Shown: positions 14,395-44,250 of the stretch, in pieces | Layout of the letters: each line of letters starts with the position of its first letter | Position numbering within the stretch: the stretch's first letter is position 1 | The notes under the pieces: model-generated | Seen by the model: the letters and a program-made list of their open reading frames with translations, nothing else | The model's database searches: none | Told to the model about the DNA's origin: nothing | Assembly (NCBI RefSeq): GCF_900119155.1 | Contig: NZ_FPIR01000006.1 | Span: 1-64,000 of the forward strand | Length of the DNA: 64,000 bases | Direction: 5' to 3' | From: Ruminococcus sp. YE71 | Lineage (GTDB): Bacteria > Bacillota > Clostridia > Oscillospirales > Ruminococcaceae | Program-made: the position numbers and the translations under genes

Positions 14395-14423
14395 TTTCTG
14401 CTCCTTTTTCTGCGGGTATTAAC

Positions 14424-14749
14424 CGGGGGAAACCCGCCTTAGCTTCGCACGGCTTGAAGAAAGGTTCTCCCCTTGCCGTGCGTAGCTAAGGCGGCCCCCA
14501 TTCCAAAGACTTTTAATATGTTGGACGATAGTTGTGTTTTAGTAGATAGTCCCTTGACATTTCAAGAGATAACATCTGATGAATACGCTCCAGCGTCCGT
14601 CTTTTTGGCAAGGTCAAGCCATATAGTAGAAGAAATACAATCTTCCCGACCTATACAAATTTAGGAAGAAACACCACAAGCCAAAAAGTATTAAAAGTTT
14701 TAGTGAGGGGGTTTGGGGGAAGACCCTTTTTCAAAAGGGTCTCCCCCAA
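14424..14749 (+). repeat. twin-hairpin intergenic repeat, copy A
   Basis: A repeat of about 326 bases. Its left hairpin is 14434-14453 with 14475-14494 (20-bp stem, one mismatch, 21-base loop). Its right hairpin is 14713-14749 (about 17 bp, 2-base loop). Inside is an inverted pair, ACTTTTAATA at 14509-14518 and TATTAAAAGT at 14689-14698, enclosing about 170 bases. Copy B at 16098-16443 is the same sequence inverted. The 63-codon ORF inside does not look coding. The right hairpin ends 2 bases past the rlmH stop and may serve as its terminator. Confidence 0.85.
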
Positions 14750-14751
14750 TG

Positions 14752-15237
14752 CTATTTATGGTACTTAGCGTTCGCCGCGATGGAAAAAGCGCGGTAGACT
14801 TGTTCGCAGAGCATCACTCTTGCGAGCTGGTGGGGGAAGGTCATGGGCGACATGGACAGGCGGAAGCCGCAGGAGCGTTTCACCCTGTCCGCGAGCCCGA
14901 AGGACGACCCGATGAAGAGGTTCACCGCAGAGTAACCCCCGACAGCCGCGTCGGTCAGTTTCTTCGACAGCTCTTCCGAGCTGATAGTCTTGCCCTCGAT
15001 GCACATGGCGATGTTGTACGCGCCCTTTGCGGTCAGGTACTTGTCCATCAGGCAGGCTTCCTTTTCGAGCGCCGCCGCTATCTCCTTGTCGGAGGGCGAG
15101 TCTGGCAGCCGCGATTCGGGCAGTTCCGCCACCGAGAAGGTGCAGTACGCCCCGAGCCGTTTGGTGTATTCGCTCACAGCGTCGCGCCAGTAGCCCTCTT
15201 TCAGCTTGCCGACGCAGACGATAGTCACTTTCAGCAT
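14752..15237 (-). CDS. rlmH: 23S rRNA pseudouridine-1915 N3-methyltransferase RlmH
   Basis: A 161-residue SPOUT methyltransferase, the standard RlmH length. It methylates pseudouridine 1915 in helix 69 of 23S rRNA on assembled ribosomes. The SAM-binding knot is seen in NLFIGSSFGLADRVK, and MSPMTFPHQLARVMLCEQVYRAF with the final YHK are family signatures. GGGAGG precedes the ATG. It lies 13 bases downstream of walJ, a pairing common in Firmicutes. Repeat copy A abuts its stop codon. Confidence 0.96.
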   Translation of the reverse strand: MLKVTIVCVGKLKEGYWRDAVSEYTKRLGAYCTFSVAELPESRLPDSPSDKEIAAALEKEACLMDKYLTAKGAYNIAMCIEGKTISSEELSKKLTDAAVGGYSAVNLFIGSSFGLADRVKRSCGFRLSMSPMTFPHQLARVMLCEQVYRAFSIAANAKYHK

Positions 15238-15250
15238 AGTCTCCCTCCCG

Positions 15251-16030
15251 TCAGAATGCGATAGCCGAACCGCCGCAGGGCTTTGCCACCGTCAGCAGAT
15301 AATCACGCCCGAAGGTCAGCGGCAGAAGCGCGTTCTTCGCCGAACGCTCGGCAAGCTCGGGAGTGTTGCTCTCCTCACTCAGGTGCCCCAGCACGAAATG
15401 CCGCGTCCCGTTCTGCGCAAGCTCCGCGAGCATACGTCCGCAGTCGGGGTTCGAGAGATGTCCGCACTCCCCTGCTATGCGCTGCTTGAGGTAGGGCGCG
15501 TAGCTGCAAGTCCGCAGCCTGTCGGGGTCGTAGTTCGACTCTATCATCACAAGCTCGCAGCCGATGATGCCCGTCCGCACTTCCTCGGTGACTCTGCCGA
15601 GGTCGGTGCAGACCGCCGCCGTCTTGCCGTCGGGGAACACCACCCTGTAACCGCAGCTCGCCTCACAGTCGTGGGGCGTGACGAAAGGCACGACCGTAAA
15701 CCCCTCGACGCTGACGCTTCCGTTAAGGGTGCGGCAGTCGGCGCCGTCGGGCAGCTTGCCGCCGCTCATCAGCGAAGCGATGTTGTCCGCCTGCGCATAG
15801 AGCGGCACTCCGAGCTTTTTCACAAGCGTTTTAAGCCCTGAAACGTGGTCGGAGTGGGTATGGGTCACGAACACAGCCTTTACCGCTTCAAGCGGCAGAC
15901 CGTTCGCACTCATCGCCTCAGACGCGCGCTTGAAGGAAACGCCGCAGTCTATCATGATGCCCGCGTGAGCGTCCCCGAGGTAAATGCAGTTCCCCTTGCT
16001 GGAGGAAAACAGCGGATATATCCTTGCCAA
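15251..16030 (-). CDS. walJ: WalJ/YycJ-type metallo-beta-lactamase-fold protein
   Basis: 259 residues from a probable TTG start at 16030, giving MARIYPLFSSSKGNCIYLG, the usual N terminus of this family. The metal site THTHSDHVSGL is followed by further His and Asp ligands (VTPHDCEASCGYRV, VLGHLSEESNT). Members are linked to cell-wall and DNA maintenance, but the substrate is not settled. The frame stays open to 16144, but that part runs into repeat copy B and lacks a ribosome site. AAGAAAGAG lies 9 bases before the TTG. Confidence 0.88.
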   Translation of the reverse strand: MARIYPLFSSSKGNCIYLGDAHAGIMIDCGVSFKRASEAMSANGLPLEAVKAVFVTHTHSDHVSGLKTLVKKLGVPLYAQADNIASLMSGGKLPDGADCRTLNGSVSVEGFTVVPFVTPHDCEASCGYRVVFPDGKTAAVCTDLGRVTEEVRTGIIGCELVMIESNYDPDRLRTCSYAPYLKQRIAGECGHLSNPDCGRMLAELAQNGTRHFVLGHLSEESNTPELAERSAKNALLPLTFGRDYLLTVAKPCGGSAIAF

Positions 16031-16097
16031 GAAAATCAACTCTTTCTTAAATGTTCCATTTGAATAAGAATTTGTGGTGCTGACTGCGGGTGCTCTC

Positions 16098-16443
16098 TTG
16101 AGGGAGACCCTTTTGAAAAAGGGTCTTCCCCCAAACCCCCTCACTAAAACTTTTAATACTTTTTGGCTTGTGGTGCTTCTTCCTTAGTTTGTACAGATCG
16201 GGAAGATTGTGATTCTTCTCTTAGGTAGCTTGCCCATTGCCAAAAAGACGTTCATGAGTGCATAACGCATTATTGAGCGTATTCATCAGATGGTCTCTCT
16301 TGAAGCGGAGAGAGTCTGTCTTCCCGACCACAACAAACTGCCAACATATTAAAAGTCTTTGGAATGGGAGCCGACTTAGCTACGCACGGCAAAGGGAGAA
16401 CCTTTCTTCAAGCCGTGCGAAGCTAAGGCGGGTTTCCCCCAGT
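16098..16443 (-). repeat. twin-hairpin intergenic repeat, copy B (inverted)
   Basis: A second full copy, opposite in orientation to copy A. The shared order is: hairpin at 16098-16134, TATTAAAAGT-type inverted repeats, the CCAAAAAGACG motif, AATCTTCCCGA, then the hairpin arms at 16371-16390 and 16412-16431. The hairpin ends and edges are nearly identical to A; the middle is more diverged. It lies between the walJ start and the promoter of the GH25 gene. Confidence 0.85.
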
Positions 16444-16521
16444 AAGATCCGCAGACAGCACCGCATAAAATGAGGTTATAAAAATTATATCACACTCTGC
16501 GGTGAAAGTCAAATTTCGCGC

Positions 16522-16550
16522 TTTACAATCCGCGCAAAACGTGTTATAAT
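16522..16550 (+). promoter_or_regulatory. sigma-A promoter for the GH25 lipoprotein gene
   Basis: TTTACA (16522-16527), 17 bases and TATAAT (16545-16550), 32 bases before the start codon. Confidence 0.8.
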
Positions 16551-16581: not shown

Positions 16582-17928
16582 ATGAAAAAACAACTCGCCT
16601 GCTGTACGGCTGCGCTCCTGCTCACCGCCTGCGGCACCGATATAGAACAGAAGTCCTCGATGCCCGAGCGCGGCACGGAGAAATCGGCGGTCGCGGCTGT
16701 GACACCGATGACGGACACCTCGGAAGTGCCCGACATCTCCGAGAGCACCCCCGACGAACCTGCGGTCACTCCCGATTCGGCTTCGTCTGCCGCGGACAGC
16801 AAGACCGACGATAAAAAAGCTCTTCGCAAAAAGCTCCGCAAGGAGATAACCCTCGATTATCCCAAGACTGTCGAGCAGTTTGCGGAGATAAAGCTCTCCG
16901 ATGCGGTAACGACCAACGCGAAGCTCACCGCTCCCGACACCCTGCTTGAGACCGACAAGGCAGGCGAGCACGAACAGAAGATAGAGCTTGAATACGAGGG
17001 CGAGAAATTCAGCTTCACTCTGAAATTCACCGTCGCCGATACTCAGCCCCCCGTCTGCCTGCTGGACGGCTCGGGAAACACCATCCTCACAGGCTCGGAT
17101 CTCGACCTGAACAGCCTTGTCAGCTACGCCGATTACTGCGACCCCGAGCCGACGCTCAGCTATGCGGGCTTCGTGGACACCTCCACGGCGGGCGTTTACC
17201 CGATAACCGTCACCGTCACCGACCACAGCGGCAACTATATCAGCTGGGACCTCGACATCAACGTCTCGGACAGCAAGCCCGAACCCTACGTTGACGCAGG
17301 CGACCAGATAGAGTTCTCCGACTTCATGCAGATGTATGCAGGCGCCGACCGCAGTTTCGGCATCGACGTTTCGCGCTGGCAGGGAGATATTGATTTCGAG
17401 AAGGTCCGCGACGCAGGCTGTGAATTCGTAATTCTGCGAATGGGCTTCTCCTCCGACGGCACCGTCACCACCGACGAGTGCTACGACTACAACATACAGG
17501 CTGCCCGTGCAGCAGGGCTGAAGGTCGGCATCTACGTCTACAGCGAGGACACCGACCCCGCCGACGCGTTCGGAGTCGGCAAGTGGGTCGCGGCAAAGCT
17601 CGGCGGAACGGCTGTGGATATGCCGATAGCCTTCGACTGGGAGGATTTCTACAACTTCCAAAACTACAAACTCAGCATCCACGACATGGAAATGGTGCTC
17701 GACTCCTTCGCGGCGGGTCTGCGCGAGAGCGGCTACAGCACCATGCTCTACAGCTCGAAAAACTTCCTCGAACGCTTCTGGGTCAACCGCGACAAGTACC
17801 CCGTGTGGTGCGCGGCTTACCTTTCCTCAGACACATATGACGGAGCGCACATACTCTGGCAGCGCTGCGGAAACGGCATTATTGACGGTATAAACGGCGC
17901 AGTTGACCTGAATATATGGTACAAGTGA
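16582..17928 (+). CDS. GH25 lysozyme-like lipoprotein
   Basis: 448 residues. The lipobox LLLTAC gives Cys17. An acidic linker to about residue 80 is followed by a beta-rich, Ig-like region (about 85-228) resembling domains placed before cell-wall enzymes. A GH25 lysozyme domain runs from about 259 to the end. GH25 catalytic acids are visible: Asp262 in GIDVSRWQG, and Asp352 and Glu354 in AFDWEDF. It probably cuts peptidoglycan while tethered to the outer membrane face, for wall remodelling. AGGAGAGAAG precedes the ATG. It stands alone under its own promoter. Confidence 0.9.
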   Translation: MKKQLACCTAALLLTACGTDIEQKSSMPERGTEKSAVAAVTPMTDTSEVPDISESTPDEPAVTPDSASSAADSKTDDKKALRKKLRKEITLDYPKTVEQFAEIKLSDAVTTNAKLTAPDTLLETDKAGEHEQKIELEYEGEKFSFTLKFTVADTQPPVCLLDGSGNTILTGSDLDLNSLVSYADYCDPEPTLSYAGFVDTSTAGVYPITVTVTDHSGNYISWDLDINVSDSKPEPYVDAGDQIEFSDFMQMYAGADRSFGIDVSRWQGDIDFEKVRDAGCEFVILRMGFSSDGTVTTDECYDYNIQAARAAGLKVGIYVYSEDTDPADAFGVGKWVAAKLGGTAVDMPIAFDWEDFYNFQNYKLSIHDMEMVLDSFAAGLRESGYSTMLYSSKNFLERFWVNRDKYPVWCAAYLSSDTYDGAHILWQRCGNGIIDGINGAVDLNIWYK

Positions 17929-25354: not shown

Positions 25355-25490
25355 GCAGCGCTCCTCGGGGGTGTTTTTTCCCGGTGGAGAACCTTTCCAA
25401 CGACTTATAAATATGTCATAAGATAGATGTGTTCGGGAAGATCGTGATTCATTTTATATATTGTTGCTCATTGCCAAAAAGACGGTGATA
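25355..25490 (-). repeat. twin-hairpin repeat, partial copy C
   Basis: A degraded piece of the copy A/B element in the same orientation as B. GGAGAACCTTTC at about 25385 and CGGGAAGATCGTGATTC followed by TTGCTCATTGCCAAAAAGACG (about 25434-25484) match the interior of B. The long hairpins are lost. It lies between the terminator of the 25559 gene and the promoter of the 24066 gene. Confidence 0.7.
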
Positions 25491-25496
25491 AGCACA

Positions 25497-25524
25497 AAAG
25501 ACCGCGTCCGAAGACACGGTCTTT
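25497..25524 (-). terminator. terminator of the 25559 gene
   Basis: AAGACCG and CGGTCTT arms with short inner pairing. On the minus strand the hairpin is followed by TTTTG. Confidence 0.65.
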
Positions 25525-44056: not shown

Positions 44057-44250
44057 GTGAGTTCTGAACTAATTGGCGGAGACCCCGCCTTTGCTGCGGC
44101 GTTCTCAAAGCATAAAAAAGCGACGGGAGCAAGCCCACGTCCTACAAATGTTCATCTCTTGAAATGGAGAGAGTCTATCTTCCCCTCCGCAACAAACTGC
44201 CAACAATATCAAAAGTCTTTGGAAGGGGGTTCTTCCCCCAGAAAAAAGCG
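44057..44250 (-). repeat. twin-hairpin repeat, partial copy D
   Basis: Interior and one edge of the A/B element in the same orientation as B. CATCTCTTGAAATGGAGAG, then GTCTATCTTCCC, CAACAAACTGCCAACA and TCAAAAGTCTTTGGAA (44151-44225) match B at about 16290-16365. The left part (44057-44140) contains GGCGGAGACCCCGCC-type pairing not seen in A or B. The long end hairpin is replaced by a short GGGGGTTCTTCCCCC. Confidence 0.75.

Follow-up and report, generated by a model that had tools for sequence, protein, structure and literature searches.

A palindromic non-coding doublet, probably mobile, on either side of walJ-rlmH in Ruminococcus sp. YE71, with related doublets in its relatives

Copies A and B at the walJ-rlmH locus

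The window analysed here comprises the first 64,000 nucleotides of contig NZ_FPIR01000006.1 of Ruminococcus sp. YE71. In it, the minus-strand genes rlmH (14752-15237) and walJ (15251-16030, start codon approximate) are enclosed by two copies of a repeat, copy A on the plus strand (14410-14749; profile match 14419-14749, 284 bits) and copy B on the minus strand (16074-16465; profile match 16098-16446, 317 bits). Aligning A from 14424 with B from 16440 to 16098 gives 83.7% identity over 343 positions (E 1.5e-104), in agreement with the earlier note, which regarded them as one element, inverted on either side of the two genes. The hairpins described in that note are also present in A. H1 (14434-14494) consists of two inverted copies of a 20-bp module, seen in both the repeat listing and the module sites, with 20-nt arms matching at 95% (14434-14453 and 14475-14494). 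H2 (14716-14747, repeat listing) has 15-nt arms and a 2-nt loop (14716-14730 and 14733-14747). The inner inverted pair, likewise recovered, measures 23 nt in A (left arm 14496-14518, nearly invariant between copies; right arm 14689-14711, from the repeat listing) and 22 nt in B. The invariant core CGTCTTTTTGGCAA (14598-14611), identified by motif scan and column alignment, is complementary to GCCAAAAAG at 14680-14688. All of these features of A lie on the plus strand. The large hairpin of B appears in the predicted fold only, being missing from the repeat list because it carries more mismatches.

The core region first proposed for the element holds, but its limits were drawn too narrowly and left out the outer inverted half-sites. 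Copy B extends to both of them (GTGGTGCTGACTGCGGGT and ATCCGCAGACAGCACC, about 16074-16465), and copy A, which runs from its left half-site CTGCGGGT through E1 with H1 and the centre to E2 with H2, has lost the right one; its right end abuts the rlmH stop codon, 2-3 bases away. The two partial copies proposed elsewhere in the window exist, in a shorter form than claimed. Both are decayed minus-strand fragments, at 25418-25510 (profile positions 139-232, 31 bits) and 44152-44231 (profile positions 43-121, 64 bits). An additional end remnant, CTCCTCCCCCAATTCAAGACCCGCACTCACCCC, absent from the first list, was noticed at about 310-345 of the window.

A minus-strand promoter-like site at 16484-16512 matches the consensus at 11 of 12 positions, a consensus match only, with copy B lying between it and walJ. 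Because this site (16512-16484) faces walJ across B, copy B may lie within a transcribed walJ leader. The interval 16484-16550 holds two such sites back to back, each at 11 of 12, one directed toward walJ and the other toward the gene at 16582.

Anatomy of the element

The element is a doublet of two inverted, hairpin-bearing ends of about 60 bp, E1 and E2, around a centre. Inward from its outer half-site, each side has its hairpin (H1 or H2), then CCAAAGACTTTTAATA or TATTAAAAGTTTTAG, a stretch with almost no variation, and finally the centre, which carries CGTCTTTTTGGCAA and its complement. Given this inverted arrangement of hairpin-bearing ends, a single strand could fold into a four-way clover. 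Many complete copies reach outer inverted half-sites of the form GAGTGCGGGT/ACCCGCACTC or GTGCTGACTGCGGGT/ACCCGCAGTCAGCAC; the genome has 70 sites for half-site GAGTGCGGGT and 9 for its control. What was described as a 20-bp stem proves to be a module of 19/20 bp, missing in some copies and repeated in tandem up to six times in others. The module GCCGTGCGAAGCTAAGGCGG, found in the hairpins in variable number, has 180 sites at up to one mismatch (control 0), and of its 75 exact sites, 45 coincide with a profile match or are no more than 40 bp from one. A 19-bp tandem module, CCGTGCGAAGCTAAGGCGG, with 180 sites at up to one mismatch, occurs genome-wide, both in hairpins of the element and outside it, for example at C18:19554-19668 and C16:261696-261791 (L137).

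Copy number and gene context in the YE71 genome

The further copies on which the reading as a repeat family depended are present, about 100 in number. The core CGTCTTTTTGGCAA has 118 sites at up to one mismatch in the 4.07-Mb genome, at least 94 of them exact (100 of the 118 sites were listed). The reversed-letter control has 4, so the abundance of the core is not due to chance. The oriented profile, run on stretches around known copies and therefore giving lower bounds, yields at least 114 matches, at least 98 of them of 150 bp or more and at least 77 of 250 bp or more; in one candidate search the best 40 of 257 candidates were scored. The mean pairwise identity of 0.76 among 68 near-complete copies marks the family as old. 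Contigs of such genomes sometimes terminate in the repeats of the element.

Gene context was scored for 93 of the 98 copies of at least 150 bp (16 of the 114 matches are shorter, and five copies had an unscorable flank), with gene calls taken from our own codon-score open reading frames. For all 93, any overlap with a predicted gene stays within 60 nt. Their gaps are convergent in 34 cases, divergent in 15 and tandem in 44, where the window background is 6 convergent among 49 gene pairs, and the tandem-gap copies are oriented 24 to 20, without bias. Twelve neighbouring pairs within 2.5 kb occur among the 98 copies (6.3 expected at random), eight of them inverted. Such pairs being common, the enclosure of walJ-rlmH is unremarkable.

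Coding and RNA readings

The absence of a shared coding frame, already noted from the two copies, was confirmed across the family. Whichever of the six frames is taken, the centre is open in 0-11 of the 68 near-complete copies, core lengths are spread over all three phases, and column variability is nearly equal by phase (0.158, 0.190 and 0.211). An open frame seen by eye in some copies is disrupted by indels, and we rejected a coding element.

An RNA reading, in which the element would be a structured non-coding or cis-regulatory RNA, draws on a very stable predicted fold (z -7.6), on the possible transcription of copy B from the site at 16512-16484, and on compensatory changes. Covariation was found in the hairpins, with both sides changed in 17 cells of H1 and 31 of H2 across the 68 near-complete copies, in an alignment where some H1 columns are misaligned owing to the 20-bp module. 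It was not found in the central stems, which pair with their own partners no better than with shuffled ones (P2 0.743/0.746, P3a 0.798/0.781, P3b 0.704/0.723, P2b 0.798/0.796), and an RNA structure of the centre is thus unsupported. The nearly invariant stretches vary too little for covariation to be judged. A mutual-information ranking was not used, since true stem pairs share its top ranks with many non-pairing columns. In the related genomes G027, G245 and G073, compensatory changes in the paired spacer are visible by eye in the centres, unlike the central stems of the YE71 copies. Against the RNA reading stand the central stems, the lack of strand bias in tandem gaps, the lack of a G.T excess over A.C among mismatches (see below) and an Rfam search that matched no family. 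The structured RNA proposed in the earlier note is consequently unsupported, and we regard this explanation as extremely improbable.

Shared ends in other genomes

Copy A matches 7 of 60 relatives, each only around its right end (query 272-350). This right end is a shared building block, E; in other genera, pairs of E ends facing each other make up doublets around different centres. A 60-position model of E, searched with stricter filters, is present in 61 of 248 genomes of the family and 32 of 95 genera, with at least 22 E matches in many of the positive genomes. The expectation of further copies in relatives thus holds for the ends and fails for the centre of the YE71 element, which was not found in any other genome searched; among the 60 relatives this absence is provisional, because at most the best 11 candidates per genome were scored. 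In 84,980 species genomes (the record of YE71 itself perhaps excluded), the paired core gave three matches. Two are in Methylobacter; the third, in a metagenome-assembled genome (L085), appears by eye to be a xanthine phosphoribosyltransferase gene and was judged a chance match of a short pattern. Searches for carriage by phages, plasmids and IMG/VR sequences gave no match, the viral scan being one exact degenerate pattern.

Several composite forms of the ends were seen. In G009, the seven sampled E ends are all single, and by eye they lie (L280-L286) beside a different palindrome, AAAATCGGCAATTTC...GAAATTGCCGATTTTA; similar composites were seen by eye in G008. In the G027 copies L061 and L073, a hairpin with a 17-bp stem (GTACTAATTTCCAAATA / GTACTTATTTCCAAATA) is inserted within the E end at about 1620-1670. 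In the G031 locus L177 (880-1384), an E end is enclosed by several nested inverted repeats, giving the impression of palindromes that arose inside one another.

Copy-specific arms around the doublets of relatives

The flanks of the doublets were compared in 55 doublets from nine genomes, leaving out four G107 doublets near contig ends and G009 with its single ends. From 11 to 60 nt outward of the E ends, the two arms of a copy resemble each other more than they resemble the arms of other copies, and likeness falls to background beyond; over the first 10 nt outward, between-copy likeness is the greater. The longest exact arm run has a median of 11 in own pairs versus 6 in other pairings. Runs of at least 12 occur in 23 of 55 doublets versus 56 of 448 between-copy comparisons, runs of at least 15 in 16 versus 37, and runs of at least 20 in 7 versus 11 of the same totals; the long between-copy runs are partly due to one insert that three G031 elements have in common. 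The longest perfect arms are 39 bp (L157), 34 bp (L084) and 34 bp (L247). In 400 kb of G031, inverted repeats scoring at least 20 within 500 bp are confined to six elements: all six have such a centre, and in three the arms qualify as well, at scores of 20-34; plain hairpins reach at most 18. Ordinary hairpins were set aside as the origin of these long arms, since their scores end at 18; it is possible that longer terminators once existed and are now all occupied. The L157 locus of G031 is predicted to fold into a four-way clover (-104.4 kcal/mol, z -20.5).

These doublets lie downstream of genes, mostly in convergent gaps, and many sit within copy-specific arms that end in T-tracts. At 40-60 nt outward, 61 of 110 arms have T-tracts and 14 have A-tracts. 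Among the 50 doublets whose gene context could be scored (five of 55 had an unscorable flank; G031 served throughout as the training genome for the open reading frame scores), convergent gaps hold 30, tandem gaps 20 and divergent gaps none, with 30 of 281 gene pairs convergent in the G031 reference. The stop codons at convergent doublets lie at medians of 52 and 54 nt from the E ends. Many of the doublets of relatives look as though a bidirectional terminator held them in its loop.

Copy-specific arms are rare in YE71 itself. Over 53 copies the arms score 8.17 on average and other pairings 7.63 (permutation p 0.015), no more than 3 of the 53 score above 15, and a copy's own partner outscores on average 48% of others. 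T-tracts are weaker at 40-60 nt (31 of 106 arms, A-tracts 22) and stronger at 60-80 nt (39, A-tracts 9). Judged by the features of a bidirectional intrinsic terminator, namely a stem with A- and T-tracts downstream of genes, the arms of relatives fit and the YE71 copies fit weakly or not at all. The terminator module suggested in the earlier note holds in part for relatives, whose doublets lie inside terminator-like arms; in A and B, no T-run follows H2, and the terminator scan did not flag it.

The element could instead be a selected bidirectional terminator or 3'-end insulator that does not move, its copies resembling each other through recombination or convergence. In relatives, the T-tracts, the convergent bias, the lack of divergent sites and the short distances to stop codons all favor this explanation. 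We nevertheless consider it unlikely, given the 15 of 93 YE71 copies in divergent gaps, the unbiased orientation of the tandem copies, the unflagged H2 of A and B, and the 11 congeners without the element at rlmH described below.

Mismatches within the pairing were tallied with 13 of the 55 elements excluded, their end types being unclear. The arms have 128 G.T and 105 A.C mismatches and the centres 24 and 41, which is nearly strand-symmetric, as expected if the pairing is kept in DNA and not via one RNA strand. In L081 both arms contain a stop codon; we did not accept this as proof of copying, since a resident terminator spanning both stops would look alike.

Evidence for mobility and candidate mobilizing enzymes

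No E end (E up to 0.1) was found near rlmH in 11 genomes of the same genus, and 9 of these congeners have at least 180 nt covering the site upstream of walJ. Two of the 11, G009 and G012, are without E at rlmH, yet each has at least 22 E matches elsewhere. We infer mobility from the amplification together with this absence at the rlmH loci of 11 congeners, which could alternatively reflect loss or divergence. Of the readings in the earlier note, a non-autonomous mobile element gives the best fit, with about 100 copies, all scorable ones intergenic, and none at the rlmH loci of the congeners, although no transposition was observed and no mobilizing enzyme emerged.

The target-site duplications that might have marked insertion were not found, at 2-9 bp and over 60 x 60 offsets, in 53 copies here and 55 elsewhere. 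In an empty-site search for one G031 copy, the neighbouring gene was present in none of 59 congeners. The high copy number, the inverted ends and the intergenic sites would suit a classical MITE whose terminal inverted repeats are used by a DDE transposase. The terminal inverted repeats are indeed there, but without a target-site duplication of fixed length; in addition, the ends bear conserved hairpins and no autonomous partner was noticed, making a MITE of this type quite unlikely.

Y1/RAYT transposases were rejected as the mobilizer, since PF01797 shows no association with E. By a hand tally that assumes the same 248 genomes, it occurs in 23 of 61 genomes with E versus 88 of 187 without, and in 10 of the 35 genomes with E better than 1e-10. 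Among five E carriers examined singly, two have it, and G031 and G027 have none. The YE71 genome has one short match (L148, 1466-1610), by eye an internally deleted IS200-like stub.

Relation to known repeats

A REPIN is a doublet of REP sequences that forms hairpins (PMC3116915). The likeness is close, with two inverted palindromic ends around a variable paired spacer, a hairpin or clover fold, extragenic sites, high copy number and no genes. The ends of the present element are about 60 bp, compared with the short REP 16-mers there. The element also lacks GTAG and an association with Y1/RAYT, and in relatives copy-specific arms with T-tracts add a further stem on the outside. That the element is a true REPIN, with a RAYT (Y1) transposase as its mobilizer, would account for the architecture, which as described for REPINs comprises an inverted doublet, a spacer with compensatory changes and a hairpin or clover, but the lack of association between PF01797 and E, its absence from G031 and G027, the mere stub in YE71 and an E consensus with neither GTAG nor CGTC make it very unlikely. 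Because the Y1/RAYT link fails, we do not class the element as a REPIN.

The GTAG- and CGTC-tagged REPs of PMC3733652 are likewise intergenic palindromes in many copies, and the paper describes the CGTC type as lacking a dedicated transposase. By eye, the E consensus lacks either tag, although CGTC is present in the centre motif of the element. The strings Firmicutes, Clostridi and Ruminococc do not occur in the text of that paper. The IS elements that insert into REPs (PMC1525189) also link insertion to palindromic intergenic DNA; those are coding, in contrast to the element, which is non-coding and in relatives occupies terminator-like sites. Template switching, according to PMC8794818, is a known route by which perfect stems are made and mended. 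It is a mutation process and not an element, and it is proposed here for the arms only.

No known family was matched in the searches made, and among the titles and abstract openings covered, with subscription papers mostly outside the search, no description of the family was found. Like the element, BOX and ERIC are intergenic repeats of modular build in which the number of inner units varies; to our knowledge, their sequences are unrelated to it.

Proposed origin and significance

The doublet lies between genes, has multiplied in its own genome and is missing at rlmH in 11 congeners; elsewhere in the family its ends enclose different centres. We propose that A and B probably belong to a set of about 100 copies of mobile DNA that is non-coding, non-autonomous and REPIN-like. 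The family is probably moved by an enzyme acting on it. This trans-acting enzyme, not behaving like a Y1/RAYT transposase, would recognize the folded ends and insert the doublet into hairpin loops or 3' intergenic DNA. In relatives, arms and centres would stay paired through a process acting on DNA, such as template switching from one arm to the other, the arms being either resident terminators that were later perfected or structures made at insertion. In YE71, the family has expanded into tandem and divergent gaps as well, and it is in decay.

A more specific and more tentative possibility, which we think could be correct but do not favor, is that these are family-wide mobile palindromes whose enzyme lies outside Y1/RAYT and which enter or create the loops of bidirectional terminators, their outer arms re-forming wherever they land as perfect inverted copies of the local DNA. 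The terminator stem would then grow because one flank is copied onto its opposite, either when the palindrome inserts or when it is replicated afterwards.

REP and REPIN DNA is mainly attributed to Y1 transposases. REPIN-like doublets without a Y1 link therefore mean that another mobilizer, or another route of spreading, must exist. The copy-specific perfect arms offer natural test sites for the origin of long DNA stems, whether by template switching, terminator insertion or selection, and the family is relevant to the annotation and assembly of genomes that carry such repeats. What emerges is an apparently undescribed, large family of palindromic non-coding DNA in intergenic gaps, multiplied in YE71 and present in other versions in its relatives.
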